DNA of 64,000 nt from the NCBI GenBank assembly GCA_018907035.1, contig JACCIC010000017.1:248001-312000 (forward strand), read 5' to 3'. Under the pieces are notes generated by a model. It was given only the letters and a program-made list of their open reading frames with translations. It was not told the origin of the DNA and searched no databases. Shown here piece by piece: positions 20,501-53,900 of this stretch. Each line of letters opens with the position of its first letter. Position 1 is the first letter of the stretch. The translations under genes were made by a program, and so were the position numbers. The stretch is from Sycobia sp. Sy_11 (taxonomy: Eukaryota > Arthropoda > Insecta > Hymenoptera > Epichrysomallidae).

Positions 20501-22201
20501 TCATGGCGCCAAGCTCATGCTCTGTATATGGTGGGACCAGCTAGGTGTGGTTTACTATGAGCTTCTGAAACCGAATGAAAGAATCACGGGCGAGGTCTAT
20601 CGACGACAATTGATGCGTTTGAGCCGCGCACTGCGAGAAAAACGGCCACAATACTCCGACAGGCACGACAAAGTTATTTTGCAACATGACAATGCTCGCC
20701 CACATGTTGCACCGCCGGTGAAAACATACTTAGAAACGCTCAAATGGGAAGTCCTACCCCACCCGCCGTATAGTCCAGACGTTGCTCCGTCTGATTACCA
20801 TCTCTTCAGATCGATGACGCATGGCCTGGCTGACCAGCACTTCCATTCCTACGAGGAAGCCAAAAAATGGGTGGATGACTGGATAGAGGCCAAACCGGTC
20901 GAATTTTTTCGCAACGGGATTCGTATGTTGCCAGAAAGATGGGAAAAAGTTGTAGCTAGCCATGGCCAATACTTTCAATAATTCATTTGTAACCATTTTT
21001 TCACAATAAAGGCTCAAAATTTGAAAAAAAACTGGAAAGACTTATTCACATACCTGATAGATTATATTATATTATATTATACTAATTTATAAAGGCAAAG
21101 CATGTTTTTGTTTGTACACGATAAACATAAAAACTACTGAATCGATTGTGTTGAAATTCAAAATATATACATTCAGTCTTATCTTTGGAAGGACATAGAC
21201 GATGCTTTTTATCGAAAATCATTTTACTTTCGTCAATAAATTAAGAGCATAGTTGACGGTCTTAACAATCAGTTTCATCAGCGGCTAGCAGATGGTGTCC
21301 TCAGTTATGTCGAATATCAACTCAGTATTAACTATTAAATACAGGCCAACTCAAGGAAGAGAAAATCTCTCTCTCTCTCCCTCCGCCTTCTCTTATAAGA
21401 TGGTTGTATGCCAAATCATACTTAACTAATATGTGAAGACAAATTATCTTTTTGCTTTATATTCTATTATCTTCCGAATCACATAGGCTACATTTTTTTG
21501 AGATTGCACAAAAGAAATTATGACAAAATAGTAAATTACTATGAATATATATATATGCGCAGACATTATCGCTTCTGTTTAAAAAAGCGACTCAAAATTT
21601 GAAAAAAAACGGGAAAGACTTATTCACATACCTGATATTTTATATTTAATTTTTAAGGTAATTTATTATAGTAATAAGTTTTATTTTAGATTCTACGGGG
21701 GTGAATATAAACAAGGACAGTCTGACTGTCATTTGAGCTAATATATTATATTATAAAAACTGTAAGACCGATAAAAATATTTATTAGTTTAATTCAGAAC
21801 AGTTGACATAAGTACAATTTTGAATTCTAATTTATTTACTTAAAAATAGAAAAGGTTTCTTGACGGCTTACAAAATCTCTCCGTTCAAGTCCGTTATAAA
21901 CATGAACAGTTCGTGCTTCAAAGCTCTCCCGTCTACCCACTAAAATCCAAAAACACCTCTTACATGTCCAGTAAATTATAGCGGACGTCTTGCATTAAGA
22001 CTAATATTCAAGGGGTACATAGAGCGTCCCAGGTATATATTACTGCTTAAATTAGCATAGTACTACGTCTGAACAATGGTCGCGCATATACAATTGCTAT
22101 TATATTGTATACATCCAAATGGTACTACCTCGACCTAAATAAATACAATAAATAGTGTGTAACGTTAAATAAAAATAATCTATTGAAAGATTTACTTCGG
22201 T

Positions 22202-22253
<52 letters not shown>

Positions 22254-23088
22254 GGTATTATGGAAATAAGTGATCAAAGAATCACCATGGATAGAGAAGA
22301 AAAAGTTATGTATAAATACCAAATCAATTTTTGATTTTTGGCTATTACGAATAGTTTTTGCACCACGCGCCAGTTTCCATCAGCCGTACTAATATGCAAA
22401 CCATTACCGCGGTTACAAAAATCGACTTTTGTTGACGCAAGCTCACTTCTCAATCCCTTCGTTTAGAACGAAGCAGAAAAGAAAACAAAATGATGGGATA
22501 CGTCGATGAGGGACTAACTAATACGCAGGTCAATATGGCGGTTATAAAAATCGACCTTTCTTATACCACTTCGGAAGACTTTAGCTGAGAAAATCTCTCT
22601 ATACAATCTTTATATACAAACGGGGGGAGCTGGCATATGTCCCTCCATTAGTCAACAAATATTGGATAGAGAGACGTTCTAAACTAAAGTCTTGAGAAGC
22701 GGTACGAAAAGGTCGGTGTTATAACCGCAATATTGGCCTGCGTATTAATAAAGCCATCATCGATGTATCCCAACTTTTTGTCTTCATTTCTGCTTCATTC
22801 TAAGCAAAGGGATTGAGAAATGAGCTTACGTCAACAGAGGTCGGTATTAGTTAGGTCCTCCCATCGACAGATCCTAGCATTTTGTATTTTCTTCTTCGTC
22901 AATAGTTCCACCTAGTTTTTCCTTTTCCAGTTCCACGAGCGTTGGCCAAGAAATATGTGTTCTGATTGGCTAATGGATACTGGCGTATAGCGCAAGAACG
23001 ACTCGTAGTAATCAAAAATTGATTTGGTATTTACACGTAATTGTTCCTTCTAGATCCATGGTGATACGTTGATCACTTATTTTGGAAA

Positions 23089-23140
<52 letters not shown>

Positions 23141-31854: not shown

Positions 31855-34800
31855 GTGGGATTGGTGGTATGGGTTGGTATTTGTGATAGTCAAGTAACTC
31901 TGGTATACGGATAAAGTACTTTATTAGATCGCTAATATTTTCATATACAATACGTGAAGCGTGCATGTGCACAATGCAGAGGCCCCAAAGCAACTGCTTC
32001 GCACCACCCGCGCGACTTCCGCGTCACCACCGATCTCTCCCCTCTCTTGCACGCTTTTCCCGTGTTCTAACGGTTTCCGCAGGAGACCATTAGGCGCACG
32101 TATAAACCCACAGTGACCTGTTCGAACCTGCCGACTGCGTCCATGCACTATATCGTTATTAATACGTTGCACACTTATACGCATCCACGCTCTCTCTCTC
32201 CCTCTCTCCTCTCTCTATATTTCTACCCTATACAACCCCCCCCCCACACACACACACACACACCAGTGTGGAGTTTTGTTGCTTTCTCCCATCTGGCGCC
32301 TCCCCAGGTTGCGGATAGGGGATGGCTCGCTACAATTTGTAGAGGGCACTGAGGAAATAAAATACTCAGGGCGGACAGAAAAAGCTAATAGGGAGGGACT
32401 CCCGAACTTAAGGCCAATTATGACTAATGTTTGGTATAAACAAGGATATACCCCAGGGAGTAACTCTGGCAAGACCGGTCAGTCTCCTCAATGATTCCGA
32501 TAGAGTGCAAGCCTCTATGGTCGGTGGTAGCCCCTCGGATTCTGGGGAGGGCAAATCAAACATAATCATAGATAGTACACTGGGTACTAAAGGAGATGTC
32601 ATGATGGATCAAGAAACGACGGATCGAGAAATCTCCATCACGCGCAGAAACAATCACCTGGAGCGACTTGGTGAGAAGATCAACCAATTGTTGGACTTTG
32701 TCAAAGATAGGCATAACGTGCATAAGACCATTAAGGATCTTGCTCGTTCTATTAATACCTCATATAAATGCATTAGTATGGCAGAGGATGATCTATTACA
32801 GTATCAACGTCCTGGTACACATGAAGTGGTGACTCAGACTACGCCGAGTCTACGCTCTGACACCAAACGAAGCGCAGCAGAAGCGATGGTTTCCACTCCT
32901 AAAACCATAGGTGGCAAAAGGACGAAAGAACCAGCATTGGGCTCAAGGAGACCATTAGAGTCGGTCGGCGTACCTATAGGCAAGTCTGAAGCCAAAGAAA
33001 ATCAATGGCAGACCATCAAGCGTAAGAAGCCCAAAGGCAAAGATAAAGAATTATCTAGTATACGCAGGCTTAATGGACGAAATAGGCCTAACTCCATTTT
33101 GATTAAGGCCAATGAAGGAGTTACATACGCGGAAGTACTGCGACAAATAAAGAATGACCCGGAGTTATCTCATGTCAAGAATGAGGGTAACAGGATACGT
33201 AGAAATGCAAGCGGTACCCTTGTACTTCAGTTGGAACGGACAGCCAAAGATGCACATGAGTTGGCACGCATTGTTGAATCTAAGGTTGGCCATAGCGCAT
33301 CCACTTCGGTCCTGACTAATCTCATTACATTGGAGATTAAAGATATAGATGAGGTCACTTCAAAGGATGAAGTATTAGAGGCTCTGAGAACACACCTCCA
33401 GCTAAAGGAGACTAACCTACTAATGGCTCGTTCCTTGCGGCAAGCTTATGGGGGTACTCAGACGGCGGTGGTGTCTGTACCATATAGCCATGCAGCTGAG
33501 CTACTACGTGCAGGGCATGTTCGAATCGGATGGATCAGCTGCAGAGTTCGAAAAAAAACAGAAATAAAGCGCTGCTTCAGGTGTTGGCAGATTGGCCACT
33601 TAGCGTAAGTGTGCTCGGGCCCTGACAGAACTAAACTTTGCAGGCACTGCGGTGGAAAAGACCATCTATCCAAGCTGTGTGTAAACGGGCCCTGTTGTTT
33701 ACTCTGTAAATGTGAAGGAAAAAAGGAGATTAACCATCCAGCATACAGCTATAAGTGCCCGATTACCGTGGAGTTTTTAAACAGACATAAAACATGAGAA
33801 TACTCCAACTGAATACCAACCATTGCGTAGCAGCTCATGACCTGCTGAAACAGACAATAAAGGAGCTAAGAATAGACATTGCTGTAATCTCCGAACCATA
33901 TTGTGACAGGGTCAGACCACAGCGCTGGATAAGTGACACAAGCAATAGAGCTGCCCTCTGGATTGGTCAAAATAGGCAGGTACTAAAGCAGTCGAGTCAT
34001 CGGAGCGAATTGATATTCTGGGCTAAAATACAAGAAATATACCTCTTTAGTGTATATGCTCCTCCAAGCTTGACGGACAAGCAGCTTGAAATCCTTGTAG
34101 CTAAATTAGTTGATAAAGGCATGGACAAGAAACCATTATTAATCGCTGGCGATTTTAACGCGTGGTCCACAGCCTGGGGAAGCGCTTCAACAAATAACAG
34201 AGGTAGTATGCTGCTTGATGGACTTAATTCTCTTCAACTCCACGTGGTTAATAAGGGATTTGAATCCACTTGCATTAGGGGTGATAAACAATCAGTCATT
34301 GATGTAACATTCGCCAGTGATGACTTGATTCAGCGGATCCTTAATTGGAGAGTAAGCGACCTTTACACCCACAGTGAACACAGGGCGATCCTGTATGAGA
34401 TTGCAGAGAAGAAAGTAAAGAACAAGTGCAATGAGTGGATGCCCACACGGAAATGGAACATCAGATCGCTAGACTGTGAAGTGTTCGCCACTATAATATC
34501 AGAAGAGCGTTTAGAATATGGTGCACCAGGCCATCTGGCAAATGCACTCATGAAGCATATCTCTGAAGCATGTGATGCATCGATGACTAGGACTAAGAGC
34601 GGATTTAAACATCGTCAATCTGTCTACTGGTGGACAAATGAAATTGCAGAATTGCGCAAACAATGTCATCGCGCACGTAGACTTGCCCAAAGAGCCCGCA
34701 CCCATAGTTATACGTTTAATAGATTATTTAAAGAAGCACAGAGAGCGCTTGTCAAGGCCATTAAGGCAAGCAAGCGTCGATGCTGGCTTGAACTGTGTGC

Positions 34801-37094
34801 AGAGGCCAACAATGACTTATGGGGACGACCATACAAAACAGTCATGGCACGATTGAGTAGGGCACCAATACAACCCACTAGCACGGTATTGATTGATAAG
34901 ATTGTTTCCGCTCTCTTTCCCAATGACATCCATGGGACTGTACTGCGCACGCAACACTCGGACGATATACCTCCTATAACAGAAATGGAGCTACATAATG
35001 CTTACGCTAAGACTAGAGACAATGTTGCCCCTGGCCCTGATGGTATCCCTAATGCGGCAGTTAAGTTGGCGATACAGAAGAATCCAGCTATATTTCTAAA
35101 AGTATATAATGCTTGTCTTCTTGAGGGTATTTTTCCTGATTGCTGGAAAACTCAAAGGTTAGTCCTGTTACCTAAGGGCAATAAGCCACTTGATGATCCT
35201 TCATCATACAGGCCATTGTGTATGCTCGACACGGTAGGTAAAATATTTGAAAAAATAATATGTAGCCGACTGGAAGCATTCACTGAAGGATTGCACGGCT
35301 TATCCTCACGCCAATTTGGATTTCGGAAATCAAAATCAACAGTCGATGCCATTAAACTGGTAGCGTGTACCGCAAGAAATGCAATCAGTGGTAAGAGATG
35401 GAAAGGTGGCACTAAACAGTATTGTGCCATTGTCGCTCTAGATGTCAAGAATGCCTTTAATTCAGCGCGCTGGTCTTCTATTATGAGTTCTCTTAAAGAT
35501 TTCGGAGTACCTGGTTATTTACAGAATGTCGTGGCCAGCTACTTTGAGAATAGGATAATATTATACCGAACGGATGAAGGCACTGTATCGCATAAGGTTA
35601 CTGCGGGAGACCCCAGGGCTCAGTTATGGGACCTATATTGTGGAATATTATGTATGATGGCGTGTTGAGGATTCCACAACCGCCTGGTTCAATAACAGTA
35701 GGGTACGCCGACGATATCGCTCTAGTAGTGACGGCTAAAACCCTTGATGAACTTACTGAAAATGCCAATGAGGCAATCAGCAACATCAGTAGATGGATTA
35801 AGACGGCTGGTCTACAATTAGCGGAGCACAAGACAGAAGTAGTTCTTGTCAGCAGTCGTAAGAAGGTAGATAGTATTACTCTTAAAGTTGGTAGCTGCCG
35901 CATTAGTTCTGCGCCATCCTTACGATACTTGGGTGTCCAGCTTGATGCCAGGTTAAATTTCAAAGAACATCTAAAGATATCTGGCGAAAAAGCGCAACGA
36001 GTTTCAGCTGCCTTGTGTCGGCTCATGCCTAACATTGGTGGCCCACGTCCACCCCAGAGGAAAGTATTAGCTTATGTTGTTAATTCTGTCAGCATGTATG
36101 CAGCACCAATCTGGCATCATGCATGCGGAATTAAATCGTATTGTGAGTTGGCCATTGCGACCCGTCGTCGCTCCTGTATACGTATTATTAGTGGTTACAG
36201 GATGGTATCCACCGACTCAGCTGAGGTTCTTGCCGGAATTCTTCCTTTCGATTTAGCTGTAGATGAACTGGCTAGGCTGCATAACATATGCAAGGCCGCA
36301 GTGGATTCCCAGGTGCTAAAAATGTGGAACGTCATCGTTCTATAGAAATATGGCAAAAACGATGGACCGATTCTAGCAAAGGCCGATGGACTTATCGTAT
36401 CCTCCCAGACATACACAGATGAATCAACAGGAAACACGGGGAATTAGATTTCCACCTAACTCAGTTGTTGACTGGACATGGTTGTTTTAGGTCCTATTTC
36501 CACTGCTTTCACCTGGATAATAATGATCTCTGCCCCATCTGTCCGACTTTGGTCGAGGATGCTGAGCATATATTAGTGAGCTGCCCTCGTTTTAGAACAC
36601 AACGTGAGCACTTGATGAACATCATCAATAAGCCAATAAGACCAGAGAGCATCCTATCAATAATGCTGGAATCTTCTGAAAACTGGAAGGCAGTAGCCAG
36701 TTTCGCAAAAGAGTTGATGACCAAACTTAGATATGCCGATAGAATTAGGCGAATGGCCCAGGATGAACCAGGCTAGCTAATTCTATTTTAAGATGCAGAG
36801 GACGAACACCGAACCCCTGATCACTTGTGTGGATGGGGGACGTAGGATAGTGTCATAAGAAGAGGAGTCGTATAGGCTAACTAACAGCCCCGCCGAAGTA
36901 ATATTCCCGGATAGTTCCGGCGGGATGCTGGTTTCGAGAGGCCACTAGTGCAGAGCTTGCTCTGCCTACGCCTAATAAAAAAAAAAAAAAAAACACACAC
37001 ACACATGTGCGTGCGTGCGCGCGCGCGCGTGTGTGTGTGTGTGCGTGTGCGTGTATGTGTGTAACTTTGTATATTATAAATTATAATATTACTA

Positions 37095-37144
<50 letters not shown>

Positions 37145-38134
37145 TATCCTTTGGATATCTGCAAGGGTCTGATGACAGAAGACTTTTTGTTATGCTTTAC
37201 TATAACTATATAATATATTAGAGAAAATATATTTTTGATCATTTTGCATATGAAATACGTAGTTATAAAATATGTATAAACAGATTTTTTTATTTTATTT
37301 AATGTTGCTCTATTTATGGTTCCAAATACCGGTGCTAATCAGCGTCGGTGGTCTACGATGTGTTTGTAAACAAAGCGCATGTAAATTATTATAGCGGTGC
37401 TTGTGTCTATCGGCCAAGACCGGAATTTAAACGCGGATCACCAAGTTACTAGTCCTTAGCTCTAGCGATCGAACCAAACTTTTCCTTATTTTATTATCAA
37501 TATTATTTTTCTACTTTTCATGCAATGAAGTTATTTAAAAACAATCATCTATAAAAAGTAGATTATGAGTTTTCAATTATAGTTTTATACTCGTAAGTAA
37601 TCTTTTATTGTTTCACAAAAGTTACTTTTGACGTGTTTTTTCCGGTCTTCTCTTTTTGTTGATTTATGAGTCATGTAAAAATCATACTATCAAATTTTTT
37701 TTATTCAAAATTTGACACGTATTTTATTATTTATTTTGGTGTTTCAGCTAAAGATGACGCGTTCGTGAAGGCAACTATCGAAGGAATTCCTCAGGAGGCG
37801 GCGAAACGTGGCATGTATCCTGAGGATGCTCTTCGAGAGAGGTTCATCAAGGTGAGCAATAACAACTTGTTCTCCGGCTATCGTTACATCATCTCCAATT
37901 CATTATCAATATCAGTGTATTCTGATATTTTTAATGGTTTATTCAATCTAATTTTGTTATTTTAGCTTTTCTATATTTGTTTAAAAATATTATGAATATT
38001 AATATAATTTTAATTCATTCATAAATCATTGGTTATTGAAATGAAATTACACTTTTAGCCTTTTATAATACATATATCCTAGAGAAATTCAAAACCGACT
38101 AATTTACTTTTCGTTAGGGCTTAAATAATAATAT

Positions 38135-38188
<54 letters not shown>

Positions 38189-41100
38189 TTCCATTTAATC
38201 CTTGCAGAATATTCATGTACTAACCTAATATATTAGGTGTATAACTTTACTTCCGCCGTTTTGCAACATATGGCTGTAGCGATAAGTGCTCATGAAAATA
38301 AATAAATCGAGGTGTCATACAATATGCTTAGGTATTTGTAAATATAACGTCATCGAAATTTTAGTCGATTTGTTTCTGCATCATAAAGTTATTCTCGATT
38401 AAACATGTTAGCTTACGAGCCAAAGTCTTGTCCTTTGCGGGAGGTTTTAATTTTCTGCTTTAATATGAAGAAATCTGCGGCGGAGGCTCATCGAGCGCTC
38501 TCCAATACATTTCAACGCTTCAAGAACGGCGATTTTCACGTCGAAGATCAGCATGACGGTGGAAGAGAGAAGGTTTTCCAAGATGCAGAATTGGAGGCAT
38601 TATTTGATCAAGGCTCGTCTTAAACGCAACAAAAATTGGCAGGATCATTGGGAGTGATACAATAAGCATTGTGAAAACGTCCGAAAGACATGGTAATGAT
38701 TCAGAAACTAGGAAATTGTGTGCCATACGAGTTAAAGCCGAGAGCTGTTGAACAGCGTTTGTTTGCTTGAAACACCTGCTTGCAAGGCAAAGACGGAAGC
38801 GATTTTTGTATCGAATATTCACCGAGGAAGAAAAATGGATTCATTATGATAATTCCAAGCGCAGAAAATCATGGATATATCTCGGCCATGCTTCCACGTC
38901 GACGGTTAAACCGAATATTCATAGTTCCAAGGTCATGCAGAAGAAGTAAAAATTGGAAGAAATAAAAATTGGATGCATTCGTGGATCGCTTCAAAATATG
39001 ACCAGTTTTTTCAACGCAGGATTCGTATGCTGTCCGAAAGATGGGAGAAAGTAGTGACCTGCGATGGACAGCACTTTGAGTTACAAATGAATAACCAGTT
39101 TTGTACAATAAAGCCTCGACATTCGGAAAAAAACGACGAAAACAAAGTTGTACTCCTAATATTTTTAATTAAAATTTAAAAATAGTATACTCTTTTGCAT
39201 ATCTGCTATCAATTCATGTTCTACAATAATATATTGGTGTCTTCGGTTTGTATTTAATAAGCATTTTTTAAAGAGCATGACGTGATTATCTTTGTTGATG
39301 ACCGCGTCGTTGTTGTAGCAATAAAACTGGTTCGATTTGCAAAAACTTATTTTAAGTCTTTGTATTTAAACTTATAACAATCTATTTAATGACAGTAGAA
39401 TCGATCTTCTTCATACATGATTTATAGTATACAATACATGTATTTGAATATTTTATATAATAAATTTAATCGCTTTAGTTTAACGCATCTGGAATAATGC
39501 ATATTTGAATGGTGCATGTGCGAAATACTTATGCTATTCATGTGATCATATTTGACTTAAAAGTGTTTTTCATTTTTCCTGTTATAGCTGACTATTTAAC
39601 AACGATGTTCAGTAATCGAGCAGTTTCTATAACCTCTTATGACAAAAATTTAAAATTGAATAAATTGCCTTTTTTAAATTAAAAATAATTACTTTGTAAA
39701 TCGAAAACATTTAACCATTAGAGGGCGGGGATGACACGTACAGATATAGTATAGTATACAAGATAGATATACAAGTATAGTATACTTGAAGAGTTAAATC
39801 AAAATATTTCATATGAATCCCAAACATTTTGAATAAGATACCATTAATCTTAAAGAGTTTTTCAATAATAATTTTGAGAGTAAAGTAATTCTTTCTTGAT
39901 ACCGCTCAAAACAATGATTCGATCCTCGTATAAGAAAACAATTGTTATATTTCGTTACAATACAAATATAATAATAAAACGAGAATGAATATGAAAAAAT
40001 ATTACTTCTAAAATACTTTTAACCTTGAAAGGGTTGGGTTTTGAGGTTTCGAAACCTCCTTTAAAAGTGTCCAAATTTATATCTTGTATCACCCATCAAC
40101 TATGTACAATGCGCTTGTTCTGGATCGAGCCCGTATATCGGCTCTTCCGCCCAGAAGGGTCATGAAAAATTTTTAGTTCGGTAAAATAGGAATAAAATCA
40201 TATGCTCAGATTTTGAGATGTGCTTCATCCAAATTTGGAGTTTGATCGGTTATAACTGCTCATAATCACGATCGTTCGAGATCAAGTAAGATCACTTCCA
40301 GGTCAAATACAAGAATAAATTTCTAGTTATAATTGTACGATTTAAATGATGATATATACGTTTTTAGCAAAAAGTAATTCTGTAATGTTACTGGCAAACT
40401 ACTTTCATAAGAATAGATTATGAAGTTTATCTGAATAATGATATTGACAGAAATGGGATTGGTTGAATGAGAAAATTCGGTGTCAAGCGCTCTTAAAATC
40501 TAAAAACCAATTTTAAATATTTCCCCCTAGGTATATTCTCTACCTGACCTTGGAGAAATCTTCATCTCTTTTTATTTGAGGTCAAAATAACGTAAAACCC
40601 AAAGTCAGTGACTCCAAAAACATAAAGATATAGCTTTTACAATGATTCAAACCATATTGCTAGGTTTGACCTTCAAATGATTTTCATTGACCTTGACTCT
40701 TAAGTGATAAAGTCAAACCAACTTCAGATAGGAACTTGCATCAATTTACTTAAGGATAAAGAAGTATCCTAGCATTATGCTTTTGAGCCGATATATCACC
40801 TTTCCAGGCCTTTAAACATAAATTGAATTACTGTTCTTATTCCATATAATGTATTGAGCTGCTTGATTATGCGAGGACACAAAAAATTGGAAATCAGATA
40901 GTATTGAAAACTTCGATAGCTTAATAACGCAAACTCAAATAGGAAATCATCTTTATATTTTAATCTAGTGCATAACAGTGGTAATTATTTTATGCCATTC
41001 TAATTATTAGGAACAATGCTCATTTCTTTCAATTAATTTAAGAATTATGGAAGCACTGAGCAAATTAAAGAGGATCGTCACTTGTTTGCAGCTAATAAAA

Positions 41101-44100
41101 AACTCACAGTACAACCATACCTAATTATTCTACGAAAAAATGATTTTGAAATAATCTCAGTATATGTATTAGGTGTACGATTTGTTTCCGTCGTTTTTTC
41201 CAAATTTTGAGGCTTAATTGTAAAAAACTGGTTATTCATTTATAATTCAACGTATTGTCCATCGTTGGCCACTACTTTCTCGCATATTTCGGGTAGCATA
41301 CGACTCCCGCGTTAAAAACACATCAATTGAGTTCGATAAAAATCTCCTGTGATTGTGTCATTCGGTTTTAACAACTCATAATACACTAAGCTGAGCTGGT
41401 CCCACCAAATACTGAGCATGACCTTGGAACTATGAATATTCGGTTTAGCCGTTGACGTGGAAGCATGGCCGAGATATCTCCATGTTTTCTACGCTTAGAA
41501 TTATCATAATGAATCCATTTTTCCTCCCCGGTCAATATTCGATGCAAAAATCGCTTCCGTCTTTGCCTTGCAAGCAGGTGTTCCAAGCAAACAAACGCTG
41601 TTCAACAGCTCTCGGCTTCAACTCGTATGGCACACAATTTCCTAGTTTCTGAATCATTACCATGTCTTTTAGACGTTTTAAAATGGCTTGTTGAGTCACT
41701 CCCAATGATCCTGCCAATTGTTGTTGCATTTGACACGAGTCTTGATCAAGTAATGTCTCTATTTCTACATTTTCAAAAACCTTCTCTCTTCCATCGCCAT
41801 GCTGATCTTCGACGTAAAAATCGACGTTCTTGAAACGTTGAAACGACTCTTGAAACATTTTTTCACTAATAGCTATCCCACCATAGGCATTACAGAGCAT
41901 TCGATGTCCTCAGCCGCAGGTTTTTTCATATTGAAGCAGAAAACTAAAACCTCCCGCAAATGACGAGAATTTGGCTCGTAAGCTGACATGCTTCATTGAG
42001 AATAACTTTATGATTCAGATACAAATCGACTAATATTTCAACGATGTTATGTTGAAAAATACCTAAGCTTATTGTATGACATCCATGATCTATTTATTTC
42101 GACTACCACTTACCTCTATAGCCATCTATTTCAAAACGGCGGAAGTAAAGTTGTACATTTAATATATAAAGATCAAATAATTTATGGAGTATGTACATTG
42201 TTGAAAGCATTGGATATCTGCTTCAAAGCTGTAATACTTTTAATGCAAAGTAAAATTCTCAAAGCGAGCAAATCTGGTTGTTATATATTATATATAGTAC
42301 AATATGACTTATATAAATTCAAAACAAAATGAGGTAGTACAATATAGGACTAAACGAGATTTTAAATGATTTAAGACATCATTTACAACTTTTAAATCAA
42401 TTACTTTTCATAATAATACATATATTATTAAGATTTTTCAATTATAGCTATTCGATAGCTTATGTAAACAAAAATTTAATCTTATAGTTCAAGAAATGCT
42501 ACAATTATTTAATATTAATCAATGTTAAATTTATTAAATTATTATTCAATTTTGTGCTTACATGTTACTTTTATAAAATATTAGCTATGGTATTCGTTTA
42601 CTATCCACTATGAAAATTCTAACATTGGATTTGGTAAAATAGTTTATATTTATATTAATAAAAAAGACAACTGTAAATTCTTTGTATGTAAAAATGTTTA
42701 CATAAAGAAATGTTTTGCGCAATTGTGCGCATATGAAATAGAAGATACAGATTTACAGATTTACAGATAAGTATATAATTTACAAAAATTTACCTTCTAA
42801 AAATAACATGTTTTTTTTTTTTAAATAGTAGTTTATTTTACGTATAGATATAGTTACGATGTAAGTACCTATCTGCAAGTAGCCAGTTTTTGATCAAATT
42901 AGTATATAAAAGCACATCGGTAATAATTTGATATAGCGAAAGCGTAGTTGATCCAAACAGATTTTTTTAAGTGTATTCTTGGTTTTTATACGATAATTTT
43001 ATTATATCCAGTGCATAATAACATAAATTAATTCTTTTAAATTTTTAATTGTTTTATTTTATAATTTCCAATTACTTTTATTTCATCTTTTTTCTTTCTT
43101 GTGATAAACAATTTTTAATATTGATCCACATTCAGTTCATTATTTCTTGTATAGTTATTTATAAACCAATTATATTATTTATAATATCAATTTATTTTAT
43201 ATTTTTGTATATAAGAACAACAGAAAAAAAAGCAAAAATGTCAGTAGGCGGCGCCACGATGTAGGCGCGTGGATATATAAGTTGCTGCCGGCCTACGCGT
43301 AAAAACTATTTTTTTAATGTTTTATTTTAACATAATTATTAATCGTTCAGAATGGGATAAAAATGTAAAGATAGATGAACCTTTTTACTTGCGTCTTGTC
43401 AAATTTGAAGTTAAAATGTTAATTAGATGGTCAGTAATAACAAAAGATTAAACAAAAAAATTCTTTAACTTCTATTGATCGGATCAGAATATGTAACGGC
43501 TCAAAATTTTCAACGTAATAAAATACATCTTGTTTCAATATTGTACCGCTAAAAACTTCTCAAATAGCCTCCCTAGCAATGCCGTTTTTCACTTTAAACA
43601 ATATAAATGTATAGTTGAAAAATGTGCTCTTTTGAACTTTGATTAATACTTATATTCTCAAGCGATTGCACTTTATTGCATTAAAAAAGTCCCAGCCGTT
43701 GAGGAACTTCGCAATGGTTAATTTTTAATATAAATAATTTTGTAACATGTGGCCATATTTAAATTACACTTTGTAATTGTACAAACATTATAAGTAGATA
43801 ATAAAATATGTATTTGCAACATTATTATTGAATTTAATTGTTTAAACAAATTTTAGAACTCTTTGGATATCGAACATTTTTTTTATTTCCTTATGTATTT
43901 AACAATAAAAAATTGATTTTTTAAGTTTTTAATGTACGTATTTTTGTATAGAATTATCTCTTGCACAACTTTTATACGAAACATTTTTCGATTAGAGCAA
44001 TAGTTTTGAAACTATTGAATAAAAAGTAAAAAAGATCATTTTTTGCTCCCCACAGTTTAGGCTCTTATTCTACACATCATAAGCTATCGTGTAGTAGGCG

Positions 44101-47100
44101 TTGAAGAAAACGTTGGTAAATCGGTCATTTTGGACTTAATTCGTTTGGACTAATAGGCGCACGAACGGAGTACACCAGTACAAAGGGGGTGGAGGATATT
44201 ACAGTAACTGTGGGAAGAAGAATGCAATGAAATGGTTGTTTTAGAATTCATCATTACATGTGCATTAAAAAATGATACACCAATTTTAGCTTCCTGAACT
44301 TCTCTAATAAGTTAGAGTTTATCTCTCGTTTTACTATCCAGTCAGTGGTCAAGAGTAAAATGTAAAAAAAATAGTTCTTTTCAAATTAATTAAAATGACT
44401 TACATTTTTAAATTTATCCTTCTACTGAATGAAATGTTTTTCTTTCATTATTTTTATAAAAATAGTCTTTAAATTTGATTTATTACATAGAAAATAAGTC
44501 GATGAAATATTTATTTCTATTATCTAAATATAGCATATTACATGAGAATCATTTAGTTAAGTATATGGTAATTAAATTAGAGCGCGAGAATACAAACAAA
44601 GTCAATCGTGTGTTTTAATATCTGTGGAAACTTTCATGACTGTATTGATTATAAATCTATAACAACTTATTTGTAATAAATAATTTTTTATTTTTCCGTT
44701 TTATACATACATATACACGGTCTTTCCGAAATAACTAAACAACGTTTCACGACGGGATCGAGAAAGAAAAGTTATATGTGTAAATTAGAATCAATTTTGG
44801 GCTATTGCGAATAGTTTTTGCGCTAAGCGCTTGCGTCCATCAGCGAATCAGGACGCACAGATCTTGGTCGATGCTCGTGGGCTAGAAAAAGGTAAAACTA
44901 GGCAGAACTGTTGACGAAGAAAAAAAAAGAAAATGGTCGAATCTGTCGATGAGATGACCTAACTAATACTGTGGGCCACTACGACGGTTATAAAAAATTG
45001 TTTATTGACAAATGGAGGGACATATGCCAGCTCCCTCCGTTTGTACACAAAGATTGGATAGAGAGACAGTCTAAGCGAAAGTCTTGAAAACTGGTGTCAA
45101 AAAATGTCGGTTTTTATACCTACTGTATAAATGCGTATCAGTGAGGCCCTTATCGACAGATTCCACCATTGTGTTTTTTTTTCTTCGTCAATAGTTCCAC
45201 CTAGTTTCTCCTTTTCCAGGCCCACGAGCGCTGGCCGAGATCTGAACGTCCTGAATGGATAATGGCGCTTAGCGCAAAAACTATTCGCAATAGTCCACAA
45301 TTGATTCAAATTTACACAAAACTTTTCCTTCTTGATCCCGTTGTGAACGTTGATCAATTATTTCGGAAACATCGTATATATATATTGTTCACGCCATTCC
45401 ATTATAAAAGTAAGTTTCAAATCTTATATGCTTGGGAATTGGCATTCAGTTTTGCTTTACTGAAATTGACCATAAGGTGTCAATAGCAGTTCTAATACTA
45501 CGGATAAGGACTGGCCTTTAATGCCTTATTAATTTAAATGTACCGTAGGGATATCCTACATGCCAAGTCTGCCTACAGAGGGCAGCTTGGCATTTAATTA
45601 ACACGTGAGCGACCACATAGGCCTCTGATTAATATATGAGCCCTTGACCCGGTCCATATAACCGCGTCTAAGGCAGGCGTTACCGACAATGCCTTACTGA
45701 TGAGTCCAGTCGGTAACCCCGAGACGAAACGCACCACGAGCCATTACTCGATATATAGGTGTGTTCATATGGGAATATAGAACACCCATGTAATACGCCC
45801 TATAGTGAGTCTGTTCCAAAAGGCCTCCGGTAAGTTGCCGATAAGTAGATAGGCAACACTCCAATGCATTTTCCTATACTCCCCATGTAAATGTCATAAA
45901 CGGTTATGAAACTGTCAGTTTTCCGCCGCTGACGTAGTCAATGGAAATAAACGGTCAGGTACGATATTTTGACTTACTGGGATACCGTTCCGTTGAGTTT
46001 ACTTCAGTAAGCAGCTGATCGCGCTTATTTTCATGAAACCCTCGTCGAACAGCTGGTGACGCTCATATACATGTATGTGTATAAGCAAGCATTAGTGTTA
46101 AAGTTTGCATGTATACTAGACATTTGAATTCAAATAAAAGACTTTTTTAAGAAGGTTTCAAATCGAATTTTAATAATTTTTATAATGGACAATCGAGTAC
46201 AATTACTTATAAGGGACTAGGTGGGGCCCAAAAATATACTTAATAATCAGTTTTATTTATTAGATTATTTAATTTCATAAAGTTAAATGAATATAGAAAT
46301 GTAATAACTTATTTGTGTTGTACGCATACTTGGTTTAAAGATTTTGCTTTCTATATTCAATAGAATTATTTATTAGGTTGTTAAATAACTCACTTCCGCC
46401 TTTTTGTCTTATGAATTTCGCGGCTATCTACAAAGCGCTACAGAGTTCGCATCCGGCAATGGTGTACATCATTTGAAAGGTCTTGACATAACGTTCAAAA
46501 CGGCGCTATGCATAATTAGTTTGGATGTTGCGTTCAAAAGTCATAGATGCGTAAACATGGAGTTCACTAATGCCGAAATTCGCGCTATTTTAAAGTTTTC
46601 CTTCGTCAAAGGCAAATCCGCTAGAGAAACGTTCCGTGAGATTAATGGTGTTTTGGGGGATGGTACGCTACCACTTCGAACCGCAAAGGAATGGTTTCGA
46701 CGATTCAGAGCCGGTGAAAACGAAACCATGGATAAGCCAGCCGGCGGAAGACCTGTGACGATGAATTCCGATCAAATCGTGGAATTTATCGAGTTAGGCC
46801 GGCATGTGGCATCTCGTGACATGGCCCAGGAGATGAGAGTTAGTCATCAAACCATTTTAAACCATCTACAGAAGGCATCTACTTTAAACCATCTGGATAC
46901 AAAAAAGCTTGATGTTTGGGTGCCGCATGATTTGTTGCAAAAAAACCTTCTGGACCGAATCAACGCCTGCGATGTGCTGTTGAAACGGTACGCACTCGGC
47001 CCATTTTTGAAGCGGATGGTGACTGGCGATGAAAAATGGATCACATACGACATCAAGCGAAAACGGTCGTGGTACAAGGCCGGTGGACCGTTCCAAACAG

Positions 47101-47681
47101 TGGCCAAGCCGGGATTGACGGTCAGGAAGGTTTTGCTGTGTGTTTGGTAGGATTGGAAGGGAATCATCCACTATGAGCTGCTCCCATATGGCCAGTCGCT
47201 TAATTCTACCATCTACTGTGGACAAGTGGGCCGCTTTAAGCAGGCTATCGACCAGAAGCGTCCACAATTGGTCAAAAGGAAGGGTGTAGTGTTCCACCAA
47301 GACAACGCCAGACCACTGACTTCGTTGATGACTCGTCAGAAGCTACGGGAATTCGGATGGGAGGTTTTATCGCATCCACCATATAGCTCGGATATAGAGC
47401 CAGGTGATTACCACCTGTTCCTGTCCATGTCGAACGCCCTTGGTGGTGTAAAGTTCGATTCAAAAGAGGCTTGTGAAAAGTGGCTGTCCGAGTCTTCGCA
47501 AATAAGGAGAGGGGTTGCTACGAGAGGGATATTATGCAGTTGCCACCTAGATGGAAACAGATTATCGAACAAAACGGCATAAATTTGAAGTAAATCCGAC
47601 CACTGTAACACTTTTTATATAGCATTGAATGAAGAGCAAAAAGCCGAAGGGAGATATTTGACAACCTAATATATGTATGAA

Positions 47682-47747
<66 letters not shown>

Positions 47748-49948
47748 ATTATGAATATATATAATTATATATAATACATACTAAATAATTATATATAAAT
47801 TTGTAAAATTTATAAATATAAATAATTTATAATTAATAAAGAAAACTGATTATTAAGTATTCATTCTGTAATAAAACTATTAAAATTCGATTTGAAACCT
47901 TCTTTAAAAAGTCTTATTTAAATTCAAATGTGTAATATCCATGCAAACTTTTAGACTAATAGTTGCTTATACACATACATGTATATGGGCGCGATCAGCA
48001 GCAACCAGCTGTTCGACAGGGTTTTGTTAAAATGAGCGCGATCAGCTGCTTACTGAAGCAAACTCAACGGAACGATATCCTAGTAAGTCACCAATAAGTT
48101 AAAATACTGCACCTGACCGTTTATTACTACTGATTTCATCAACGGCGGAAAACTAGCAGTTTCATAACCGTTTATGACATTTACATGGGGAGTATAGGAA
48201 AATGCATTCCAGCATTGCCATATCTATTTATCGGCAACTTACCGGAGGCCTTTCAGAACAGACCTAGTTTCTTAAATGTCTCAAGTTTCGAACCGCTTAA
48301 AATATGCTTGAAGATGAACCGTAACGGTTGGAAACGTCGGACATCTAAAGTACATTTAAATTTATGGTCGTAGTCAGATTGTTTTTACTAACATAAATAT
48401 AGTTTATTTTTATTCTTCTTATTATTTTTAATTTAATTTTCTTTTTAGTAGTCAGTGCTATTTCAGATTCTTCAGGGTAATTATGAACAAGGACAATCTC
48501 GCTGGCATTATATTAGTTATAATATATTATTGTATAAAGACTGATCGATAAAAATATTTATTCATTGAAAAATTGTTTTGATAAACATCTACACTTATTT
48601 TTAGATTGAAATAAAGGCTTAAATCGAGAGTATCATCTTAAATTTTTCAACAAGAAAAAAAATATATTATTTCACAAATCGACCAAATTTAAAAAGACAT
48701 CAAGACTTGATCTTTACAAAATTGTCACTATTAAACATGGATTTTTAGAGGATGAATTTTAGAGTTTTTCTGCTTAAATATTTTTTAATGTTTAAACAAT
48801 AGATATTTGAAAATATTTTACCGTTTCACAACAAAGCTTTCAGATTCAAATTTTGCGGATAAATAAATAAAATAGGTCTTTTTTATTCAGAAATATATTA
48901 TTGTAAACATAAGAAAATTTAATTTTTTTTAAAACCTTTATAGTCTTGGTGCCAAGTGTCTTCCTGTTTACAATAATATATTTCCGAAATATATATATAC
49001 TAGCATCCCCCGTCTCGGCTTCGTCCGAGATAATAATTTAACCGATTTCATAAACAATTCAATAATATCTAAGTAAAAAGTACTCTTATATATACAAATC
49101 TATATTTCTATAAATAATTGACCGTAATTTACCTGTCGTCGCTTCTGTATAAAAAGCTGCGTCAATGTAGCGCCCACTTCAAAAAGTTAATATTTTTCCG
49201 ACTATTTTATACAATCACACACACATGCATATTACATACGACTTTTATGGGAAAAACTGTACTTTCCGAGTTCAAGCGGTAGAAGAAAATGTCCAAGTCT
49301 CTCGAGACGACGATTTCGGAGAGAACAATGTTCGGACTATTGGAAATTTCTCGGGACGCTTGCTATATAGAGTTTTGTGATGGGAAGGTAGAATACAAAG
49401 TCCAGGTATCTCGAGACTACTCTTACTGGGAGTGTGCGTGTTCGAATGATAGAATACGAATCTCTTCATAGAAGTCGTGCTGGCATACCTAGATTTCGTT
49501 TCCCACCAGCTATACACGAAATTCCCCGTAGAAGTCGTTCCAAAACACCTGGAAATCGCATTCTATGATCCGAACATGAAACTCCCCCTAGAAGTTGTCC
49601 CACTATACCTAAACATCATTTCCTACCAACTAACCACGATAGTCCCAGTAGAAGTCGGCCCGTAACGACTAAACACAATACTCCCCGCAGAAGTCGTTTG
49701 GAAAGACTAAGATATCGTATTTTACCGTCCCAACACGAATCTTCTCATACAAGTTGATTTCCTCATACCTGGATGTCGGTTTCTATGAACTAAATACAAT
49801 ATTCCCCTTAGAAATCACCCAGAGACACCTGGGCATTGCATTCTATCATCCAAACACACAACTGCGTATAGAAATCGTCTTGAGGCAACGGAATATCGTA
49901 ATCAACCGCCCGTACACGCCAATACAATATTACTCAGTAGAAACCGTA

Positions 49949-50930: not shown

Positions 50931-53900
50931 TATGATAGAATAGATAACACTTAGATGAAACATTTTTAATTATAAAAGTAGTTTTATACTCCCATATAGG
51001 ATTATTTTTAACATCGTCCTGCCATTTTCAGCAAAAATATCATAGTTATATTCAATACCCCAAAAATTTTATTAAAATACTTGTTCCATACTTTTTTCTT
51101 GATGGCTAAAAATCGATTGTTTTTAAGATTATTTTTACTTGTATGGATAGTATATTCCATACAAGTAAAAATAATCTTAAAAACAATCGATTTTTAGCCA
51201 TCAAGAAAAAAGTACTTTATTAATTTTTATTTAAATATGATCTTTTCAGTTTAAAATACAAATCTTAATAGAAATATAAATATATTTTTCATTCAGTAAT
51301 GACATGAAGGTAATGCATTAAATAAATTAGATTCAAGCTTCATCGTGTATTATAATATATTCATCTTTTCTGCAGTATTCTCTATTGATGTACATCACTT
51401 ATATTTTTATTTGTATTATTTGCATCTTATTATGTTATGTACTTACTTTATTCAACATTCTGGAATTTCAAAATTATAAAACCAGGTAAACTTTGTTTAT
51501 AATGAAATATTTTAATTAAGCAATGTTCACTTTGAATTTTAATTATAATAGCATTTTTGTTCTCAATCAAGTTAAAAGAAAAAAGTGTGTCTCTGCAAAA
51601 AAGGAGGTTCCTTCTATTGCTGTAGTAGTCAAAGTTTATAAAAAAAAGTTAAAAATTAATGCGTAATTTTAGCATTAAAAAGTAAAAAATGATTTCAACA
51701 TAGTATAAATATTGTGTTTATTTATCAACTGTTAATATTTGATGTAAATATAAGTTCATTTGAATCTTTGTCGAATAGTGCTCGCAGTACATATAATAGT
51801 ACATGTAGAAGAATAGAGTATGAGTACAGTATATAATGAACAGAGTAAGTAGATTTCCGAATTTACTGTGTGTTTCGCACTTCTTATCGCTTTTTGATCA
51901 AAATTCGATTGCAGCAAACGTTTACTTAATTTAATGAGATTATCTTTAGATTGTGCACGTAATGAAATTTGAAAGCTATCATTTAAAAAAAGAAGATTCG
52001 ACGCTTACAATGACGGTATTCTATTTATAAATACTCTTGTGGAAGGACCTCTATTAACTTTTCTTATTAATAGCATTATTTTAATATATTTTCATTTGAC
52101 TTTGCTTTAAATTAATATTCATAAATAATGAATAATAAATTCATAAATAATAAATTAATATTCATAAACTATCATCAAATTTATCATTATTTTTTCTCTA
52201 TTTCTATATTATACTTCTTAGCAATAAAAGAAGTCTTGTTATAAAGATAAAACTTTACTAATTTCAGATATTATATGTCTTATCAAAATTGTTGGAGAAA
52301 AAATATATTATAAAGATATTTTTGAATAAACTTCTATTTTCATATTTATTGTTATGTTGGAATCTAGAAAATATGTAAAATTTTATAAAATGCAAACATT
52401 AAAAAAAGTACAATATTGTTGATTAATTTTTATACTGTGTATAAAAAGTTTAGTAATACATTTTACTATTTTTATTTAAACTATCTTATTTAAAATAAAA
52501 ACTTTTTCAAAATGTTCAACTTATAGTTTTACTACTAATTAAATCAAATTGCTAATATCCATTATATTATACTTACCCTTAGTTCGTAATTTTCTTGTAT
52601 TATTCTTCTTTCTTTATCAACCTCCAAAGATATTGCTTCTTTAATTTTTTCTTGATCATTTTGAGATTTTAAAGCTGATTTCAGCTTGGCATCAGCAAGA
52701 GTCTAAAAGATTTTTTAAATAAATAAAAATTACGTACTAAACTAAAATACAAAAAAAAATTTGTTACCTGCATTCTCTCTATTTCTTTTTGTAAAAATGT
52801 TATTTTACGGTACATGTGTAAAACAAATAGATCAAATGCATCTTCGGTAATTGAAAGTTTTTTATCATCAATATTAACATTAGGAAATAAAATTTGTAAT
52901 TCTTCGTGAAACTGTTGGCGTGCTGTTTTAACGCTTTTCCAATATTTTTCCGAAATATTTGCATTTGCTACTTCTTCATCAAATGCTTTTTTTGCATCAT
53001 CAACATCAGATAATATTTTATCAATATTTCTTCTGACAATAATTTTTTGTCCTTGTGTTGCTTTAAGTTTAGGATCATCAATAGAATGCTGCAACTGTTC
53101 TAAGGTTTTAACAACTTCATCTGCTTTTTTCTCAGCCTCTTCTAGTGCTTTTCTTCTTTTTCCTGATGCACTTTTTAAACTGAAAGAAAATTAATTATTA
53201 ATTTTGTAAACAACTGCATTAACTTAAGAAAATAATTAAATTAAATTATTTTTTAATTCAATAATAAAATTTAATTATTTGTTTAATTAAATACTTAAAT
53301 TATTATGTTCAACATTTTTCTTTATAATATTTATACATTTTACATTTCTCTCTACAATACATAATTCAGAATTTTTTAAATATTTCTAATAAATATTTAA
53401 AATAATTAAAATTTATCTTATTTAAAAGTATTTAATCAGAAGATAAAAAGAATCAATAAAATCAGAAAACATAAAAGCTTTTCTTTTTAATAATTTGATT
53501 ATTAAATATTTTACAATGGTTCTTTGAATTTTGGATTATACAAATTACAACTTTCACATTATAAAAAAAAAACCAAACAATTGTTCCATTGGTCAAGTAT
53601 TACCTGATAAATTGAAAAAAGTAAATTTAGTTTTAATGAAAGAATATTATTATTAATCAATTTATAATGCAATTATATTTACTTATCCCAAATTGGCTGC
53701 CCGACGGTTGAATCAGAAGTTTCTACTACAGTCACAACATTTCTATTGTATTCTTGAACTGCACAAGCTGCATCTTTAAATGCTGCTATAGCAGTTGTGG
53801 CAAGTGTTCCAGCATATTTTTCCAATTCAAGCAAGTCAGGTACTAGATCTTCCTCATTTTCCCCCACTGGCTTTGATGATACTGTACAATGAAAATTTTT

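Follow-up and report, generated by a model that had tools for sequence, protein, structure and literature searches.

A type III hammerhead motif in a solo long terminal repeat of a candidate LTR retrozyme in Sycobia (Hymenoptera)

The window analyzed here is a stretch of 64,000 nucleotides (nt) from Sycobia sp. Sy_11 (contig JACCIC010000017.1, positions 248,001 to 312,000; G000:C80:248001-312000 in the 621 Mb, 472-contig genome that was searched). It contains a type III hammerhead ribozyme motif that lies within a solitary long terminal repeat (solo LTR) and is followed by a mariner-like DNA transposon abutting the right edge of that LTR (Table 1). The motif probably belongs to a gene-less LTR retrozyme of about 605 bp, in which two LTRs of 259 bp, each equipped with a type III hammerhead, flank an internal region of about 85 bp; the window copy is a decayed solo LTR of this element.

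Table 1. Features of the window, in window coordinates (RT, reverse transcriptase)
Feature	Position	Strand	Basis and remarks
Solo LTR (H-LTR), 261 bp	45544..45804	+	Alignment with other copies; ends from their 4-bp duplications
TATA-like stretch TATATGA	45633..45639	+	Sequence, alignment; 29-35 nt upstream of the cleavage site
Type III hammerhead ribozyme	45664..45732	+	Sequence, cmscan, other copies; predicted cleavage after C45668
5′ strand of stem III, GCGT	45664..45667	+	Partner ACGC 45729-45732; 86.2% of cells paired, 80 copies
Cleavage-site segment GCGTC^	45664-45668	+	Sequence
5′ strand of stem I, TAAGGCA	45669..45675	+	Partner 45690-45696; 96.3% of cells paired, 80 copies
Loop I segment complementary to loop II	45676..45687	+	12 nt in the majority sequence; 11/12 in the window
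Loop I exact 9-nt complement GTTACCGAC	45679-45687	+	Sequence
3′ strand of stem I, TGCCTTA	45690..45696	+	Sequence, 80-copy alignment
Core box CTGATGA	45697..45703	+	Sequence, cmscan
5′ strand of stem II, GTC (majority GTCC)	45704..45706	+	Partner 45723-45725; 98.4% of cells paired, 80 copies in part selected on stem II
Loop II segment GTCGGTAACCCC, partner of loop I	45709..45720	+	Sequence, 80-copy alignment
Loop II exact 9-nt complement GTCGGTAAC	45709-45717	+	Sequence
3′ strand of stem II, GAC	45723..45725	+	Sequence
Core box GAAA, last A paired with T45667	45726..45729	+	Sequence, cmscan
Mariner-like DNA transposon	45805..48264	+	Inverted ends; termini known to within a few bases; abuts LTR right edge, not part of the retrozyme
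Endonuclease/RT open reading frame, non-LTR type	33794-35668, RT continuing in 35626-36345		Domain scan
Mitofilin-like exon	52681-53094	-	Domain scan

The hammerhead motif and its loop complement

The features that define a type III hammerhead are present in the window copy: the CUGAUGA...GAAA core, an NUH cleavage triplet and three helices, of which stem III is open-ended. The first-pass annotation, made from the letters alone, had described a full type III hammerhead whose stems III, I and II measure 4, 7 and 3 bp, with both core boxes and a 9-nt stretch of loop I exactly complementary to loop II; each of these elements was found in its place, including GTTACCGAC against GTCGGTAAC, and cmscan matched the Rfam model RF00008 (Hammerhead_3) at 45661-45735 with 25.8 bits (E 0.0028, 501-base search). 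This score lies below the gathering score of 48.5 and does not reach the curated Rfam threshold, and a cmscan of the whole window at the gathering score gave no hit at all. Two other copies (L098 and L099) reach 27.9-29.5 bits, also below gathering. The low score of the window copy is probably explained by the length of loops I and II. The bare pattern CTGATGA-N5..35-GAAA matches three times on the two strands of the window, and as many matches occur in 18 of 100 shuffles.

Genome-wide, the 67-nt motif with at most three mismatches has 28 copies, including that in the window, and the reversed pattern used as a control has none. A looser pattern of core and stem II (CTGATGAGTCC-N3..25-GGACGAAAC), which itself selects intact cores, matches at 72 places (reversed control, 0), 70 of which were assigned to the same ribozyme-LTR family by the letters of loop II; 69 of the 72 were read with their flanks, and the other three (C445, C460 and C466) are known as matched letters alone. 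The alignment of 80 distinct copies used below is biased, in that 28 loci were picked for likeness to the window copy and the others because their core and stem II are intact; L102 and L133 (different sequence on the stem I side), seven duplicate rows and L126 (an insertion) were excluded from it, and L035, L096, L097 and L098 were removed by a filter. The first-pass annotation had named genomic copies with unconserved core and stems as an observation that would refute it; instead, 93.9% of the stem and loop-loop cells pair in these 80 partly preselected copies, the individual stems being paired in 86.2-98.4% of cells.

Two hammerhead-like loci, L096 (G000:C113:8216830-8217180) and L097 (G000:C214:2149840-2150190), have differing flanks and a similar loop II (AGCAGSTAAC), and are possibly a second hammerhead family. 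L096 was set aside as support: a 7-nt loop complement can be read in it (388 of 60000 shuffles are as long), but cmscan pairs its letters otherwise, with 21.9 bits. A clear stem I is missing from L097 (15.9 bits). In IMG/VR, neither the family pattern nor the primer-binding region described below had a match, and the loose hammerhead pattern gave 38 stretches with 40 motifs, in three of which a script found a stem I, of 4 bp each, together with an NUH triplet.

In the majority sequence, composed of the majority letters of the aligned copies, loop I holds GGGGTTACCGAC and loop II holds GTCGGTAACCCC, a 12-nt complement that takes up 12 of the 14 nt of each loop, and stem II has 4 bp. The window copy is slightly decayed relative to this sequence, since its loop complement retains 11 of 12 pairs (C45678 stands opposite C45718) and the fourth pair of its stem II, C45707/A45722, is broken. 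When the letters of both window loops were shuffled, a complement of at least 9 nt arose in 11 of 60000 cases. The earlier impression of an unusual loop contact holds for its length and not for its existence, because loop-loop pseudoknots are predicted in about 40% of known hammerheads, those described having 4, 5 or 6 pairs (PMC3088659). The competing, core-disrupting hairpin that had also been proposed is recovered by nested folding, with -29.5 kcal/mol for the best fold of the majority sequence (hairpin plus stem III) as compared with -14.5 kcal/mol for the hammerhead helices without loop contact, the energy models used being ones that ignore pseudoknots; the hairpin is favored in the window copy as well. 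It is possible that the loop complement acts as a switch between an active and an inactive fold. A natural variant without the long complement exists in the 3′ LTR copy of L035, in which a short loop II (CTGATGAGTCGCACGAGGACGAAAT) replaces the 14-nt loop and loop I is unchanged.

The carrier element, its relatives and its surroundings

The first-pass annotation had left the motif in an unassigned context, outside any element. Alignments of the copies and their target duplications place it instead in a solo LTR of a short non-autonomous LTR retrotransposon. The LTR has fixed ends (TGTGGGGTACCC...CCCTATA), and full copies measure 258-270 bp, mostly 259-261 bp. The window LTR resembles a subtype starting with TGTAGGGGTACC, with C in place of T at 45544; its left flank, GTAC (45540-45543), is not matched perfectly on the right, the side on which the mariner-like element abuts, and the duplication is unrecognizable. 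Among the 28 aligned close copies, the left part is truncated in L002 and L003, and the sequence departs from the family on the right, past the ribozyme, in L009, L016, L024 and L028. Most of these rows carry TATATAA at the TATA-like position, about 30 nt before the cleavage site, and this stretch is a possible LTR promoter. The start of the LTR (45544-45564 and other copies) is a near-palindrome, TGTGGGGTACCCACA in the common subtype; it is TGTAGGGGTACCCTACA-like in L030, L052 and L098, with the symmetry largely retained. A reading of the repeat as SINE-like (short interspersed element), entertained after the first alignment, was dropped once paired LTRs, a primer-binding site (PBS) and a polypurine tract emerged, and membership of the motif in the mariner-like element is excluded by its position outside the inverted arms.

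Among 20 full LTRs that a script counted as solo, 4-bp target duplications are perfect in 13 and match in at least three of four positions in 18. Shuffled flank pairs yield a mean of 1.07 perfect duplications (maximum 6) and of 2.8 with at least three of four matching (maximum 9), and offsetting the flank by 1-3 bases on one side leaves 0-2 perfect ones. Within this set, L041 fails and in fact represents the 3′ LTR of a mixed element, and L006 fails as scored. The solo LTRs L011 and L017 have common flanks on both sides; they probably stem from a duplicated insertion and are non-independent in the count.

Two LTRs separated by 84-86 nt occur at six loci (L014, L016, L024, L045, L050 and L099). 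L014 has its LTRs in direct order, 86 nt apart, totals 605 bp and is bounded by the perfect duplication ATAA; L099 is a second complete element, with ATAG. L045 has two full LTRs, and one LTR is incomplete in L016 (3′ LTR), L024 (5′ LTR) and L050. Both LTRs contain the hammerhead motif in L014, L016, L045 and L099. The internal region of about 85 nt is non-coding; among the 13 internal stretches listed it measures 84-97 nt in 12 and 69 nt in L056. It opens, directly after the 5′ LTR, with the PBS, TGGTGACCCCGACGTGATC or a variant, and closes, directly before the 3′ LTR, with the polypurine tract GAGGGGGAGTGA, exact in 6 of the 13 stretches and present with changes of one or two letters in most others. 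L014 thus has the properties of a terminal-repeat retrotransposon in miniature (TRIM), being a non-coding LTR element shorter than 1 kb with a PBS and a polypurine tract, and the family departs from metazoan non-LTR retrozymes in having a type III hammerhead, LTRs, a PBS and a polypurine tract.

The PBS (TGGTGACCCCGACGTGATCTA, at most one mismatch) was found at 29 loci. The sequence 5′ of it is at least part of the ribozyme LTR at six (L030, L034, L035, L045, L050 and L052), a different LTR of 340 bp, termed “P,” at seven (L029, L031, L033, L037, L039, L044 and L047), another LTR-like sequence with the ribozyme LTR downstream at two (L041 and L056), and other sequence at the remaining 14. Domain scans of three of these 14 identified a gag-type domain (DUF7041) in L057, a retroviral protease with a score barely over the cut-off in L038, and, downstream of L055, a reverse transcriptase (RT) followed by an integrase zinc-binding domain, with a weak integrase-core match under the cut-off. 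The order downstream of L055, RT before integrase zinc-binding domain, is that of Ty3/Gypsy elements, and a Ty3/Gypsy element with the same PBS is the putative helper of the ribozyme element. We take the partner of the PBS stretch TGGTGACCCCGACGTG to be the 3′ end of tRNA-Trp, with pairing that presumably continues over about 45 nt into the anticodon arm.

The ribozyme LTR follows downstream at all seven P loci, pointing the same way at five and the opposite way at two (L031 and L047). In the latter two, the P LTR and internal region are followed by an inverted ribozyme LTR, as if two cDNAs had been joined. Perfect 4-bp duplications enclose the mixed elements L029 (ATAT), L033 (ATAT) and L039 (GCAT); that of L044, TATG, counts as perfect on the assumption of a mutation in its first LTR base, and the left end of L037 is broken. 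In ordinary LTR retrotransposition, one template supplies both LTRs. The presence of two different LTRs within one duplication therefore points to a template switch in the shared internal region, and the mixed elements are best explained by switching onto a co-packaged RNA.

The mariner-like element at the right edge of the LTR has unusually long inverted ends, with nested arms of 27-129 bases that are 75-96% complementary (the outermost at 45809-45851/48221-48263), and its open reading frame (ORF) at 46404-47150 encodes an HTH_48 (Mos1) domain. At the junction, CCCTATAGTGAGTC (45799-45812, LTR end plus mariner start) equals part of the T7 promoter reverse complement, which we take to be coincidental. 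Just left of the LTR lies a short element with inverted ends (44707-45385), a relative of which occurs at about 22206-23140. Several highly similar repeat copies in both orientations, with arms up to 99-100% complementary, occupy 7008-10135, 19781-21064, 37695-39744 and 41189-42332; one of them includes a Mos1-type transposase ORF (19938-20981), and these repeats may have been recently active. Among the best 120 of 502 relatives of the non-LTR-type RT of the window, the named organisms are all insects, mostly the wasp Trichogramma, plus Neodiprion, Euphydryas and Bactrocera.

Proposed mode of movement and rival explanations

The most likely model is that a transcript spanning both LTRs would self-cleave at both hammerheads, as in the plant model, and that the released unit between the cleavage sites, 345-347 nt, would be closed into a circle. 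The distance between the predicted sites is 346 nt in L014, 345 nt in L016 and 347 nt in L099, and 280 nt in L024 because its 5′ LTR is incomplete. A tRNA, presumably Trp-like, would prime on the circle inside particles of the Ty3/Gypsy element that shares the PBS, and the Gypsy enzyme would reverse-transcribe the unit, after which the DNA would integrate; in the mixed elements, the minus strand would have been started on the RNA of the ribozyme element and completed on P RNA. Compared with dinucleotide shuffles, the predicted circular fold has a clearly higher stability in L014 (z -4.6) and in L024 (z -3.0). The loop complement would have a double role. A full 12-bp kissing helix leaves a bridge of two nucleotides per loop, apparently too few, and therefore partial kissing is expected when the ribozyme is active and full pairing when it is locked. 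Most likely, a short part of the complement docks loops I and II in the active fold, and the full helix is the hairpin that shuts the core and guards the circle from recutting. As a whole, this proposal of an animal LTR retrozyme that moves via 345-nt circles and reverse transcription in Gypsy particles, with the 12-nt helix as a switch (partial pairing for cleavage and ligation, full pairing as a lock), is tentative and somewhat less likely than not.

Several observations weigh against it, or against the retrozyme assignment itself. One or both hammerheads are damaged in L024 and L050, and a matching duplication is missing in two of the four two-LTR loci with readable outer ends (L024 and L045). 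LTR pairs within one element are 88.5-93.8% identical (n = 5), as compared with a mean of 89.6% for random copies; the pairs are hardly closer than random copies, and thus the family is old here and its present activity doubtful. The sampled copies point to an ancient burst and show nothing that would indicate recent movement. Covariation does not exceed that of shuffles: the 80 copies contain 9 double-change cells against 6.0 +/- 2.1, with 62 of 500 shuffles as high, and slid-partner controls give 9-21 double-change cells; in these controls, however, pairing holds in just 29-43% of cells. The 28 distinct close copies contain no double change; in the larger set, the loop pairs changed from G-C to A-U at the fourth (six copies) and second (one copy) positions and from C-G to U-A at the ninth (L056), and stem I changed from G-C to A-U once (L123). 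The outer four loop-loop pairs are kept in 90.3% of cells and the other eight in 95.3%. This pattern is the one expected from decay after insertion and gives no support for selection on the loop helix. In addition, the circular fold of L016 is only weakly more stable than shuffles (z -1.6); the host tRNA was not found, as two tRNA-Trp patterns gave either no match or five, all in these elements; and none of the 29 PBS loci has the P LTR in full on both sides. The mixed elements are also compatible with a linear RNA template and do not demonstrate circles, and transcription, cleavage and circle formation are all predicted from sequence.

An ordinary TRIM that moves via a linear RNA with R regions, in which the hammerhead is a passenger or an end-trimmer and no circle is formed, is the strongest competitor, although we consider it unlikely. 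The size, LTRs, PBS, polypurine tract and 4-bp duplications are as in animal TRIMs such as PbTRIM of ants (PMC3532108), and template switching on linear RNAs is compatible with the elements whose two LTRs differ. However, with a hammerhead in each LTR, such an RNA would be cut close to its two ends and lose the R regions, as argued from plant retrozymes (PMC4918200), and the core is intact at 72 places, though the search pattern itself selects intact cores.

Less probable again is the idea that the structure with a function is the 12-nt hairpin, which might serve as a signal for packaging or dimerization, and that the hammerhead is mostly off or dead. Nested folding favors the hairpin in both the majority sequence and the window copy; on the other hand, the energy models are blind to pseudoknots, the majority sequence has the core boxes, cleavage triplet and stems I-III, and the RF00008 match of L098 and L099 would be unnecessary for a plain hairpin. 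Descent from a viroid-like or delta-virus-like RNA is very improbable: type III hammerheads with loop pseudoknots do occur in hepatitis delta virus (HDV)-like RNAs of termites and toads, and are also known from the genomes of termites, as isolated motifs, and of flies (PMC7936874), but the LTR ends, PBS, polypurine tract and 4-bp duplications are those of an LTR element. A chance likeness to a hammerhead, to which the Rfam score below the gathering threshold might point, has negligible probability and is refuted for the motif by the counts in the searched genome (72 and 28 matches against none for the reversed patterns).

Comparison with known systems

As an LTR retrozyme, the Sycobia element most closely recalls those of plants (Cervera, Urbina and de la Pena, 2016; PMC4918200), which are likewise non-coding, carry a type III hammerhead in each LTR, a PBS after the 5′ LTR and a polypurine tract before the 3′ LTR, generate 4-bp duplications, and have predicted RNA folds with the hammerhead “in a blocked conformation.” A Ty3/Gypsy helper is probable for the plant elements and is a candidate here. 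It differs from them in its insect host, in its LTR of about 259 bp (300-400 in plants), internal region of about 85 nt (300-600) and unit of 345-347 nt (600-1000), in a PBS that is not of the tRNA-Met type, and in the 12-nt Watson-Crick complement between the loops (PMC4918200). Metazoan non-LTR retrozymes (Cervera and de la Pena, 2020; PMC7229834) share the animal host, a hammerhead and a small unit, theirs being of 170-400 nt; by contrast, their hammerheads are of type I and lie in tandem repeats without an LTR, PBS or polypurine tract.

Short LTR elements with 4-bp duplications are known in Hymenoptera from the TRIMs of ants and the Helenus TRIMs of chalcid wasps (PMC3532108; PMC10886601), and a tRNA-Trp PBS occurs in some hymenopteran Helenus elements and in Gypsy-32_NVi (same sources). 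PbTRIM, unlike the present element, has an LTR of 152-184 bp and a tRNA-Leu PBS, and the word ribozyme is absent from the text of its description (PMC3532108); the LTR of Helenus holds a tRNA-like sequence, and retrozymes are named there as a separate group (PMC10886601). The type III hammerheads of HDV-like agents, termites and flies resemble the Sycobia motif in topology, in a Watson-Crick contact between loops I and II and in their occurrence in insects, whereas their contact comprises about 4 nt (GCCR/YGGC) and their helix I is long, with an internal loop (PMC7936874). The genomic copies in termites are isolated motifs, and searches for the HDV-like architecture yielded none in some hymenopterans (PMC7936874).

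Animal retrozymes have been described as non-LTR elements with type I hammerheads (PMC7229834; PMC7761336; December 2024 review, PMC11722881), and no report of an animal LTR retrozyme was found in the literature searched, which excludes preprints and the majority of subscription papers. De la Pena and colleagues have announced that a study of type III hammerheads in insects is in preparation (PMC7761336; PMC7936874). The authors of PMC7761336 also raised the possibility that the LTR retrozymes of plants originated in organisms bearing type III elements, such as bacteria or insects; insect type III elements are thus not wholly unexpected.

In the literature searched, retrozymes are split by kingdom, with LTR elements and type III hammerheads in plants, non-LTR elements and type I hammerheads in animals, and different proposed helpers. 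The present element suggests that animals too may carry LTR retrozymes that move through small RNA circles. A plant-type element in an insect would imply repeated invention or transfer, and would make the Gypsy-helper model testable in an animal. The mixed-LTR elements are genomic evidence on how retrozyme RNAs get copied and, if the model is true, would directly record template switching between ribozyme RNA and LTR retrotransposon RNA. The 12-nt complement also lends itself to a simple experiment on how a hammerhead avoids recutting its own circle. What appears to be new here is an LTR retrozyme in an insect and an unusually long loop-loop complement, in an architecture already known from plants.

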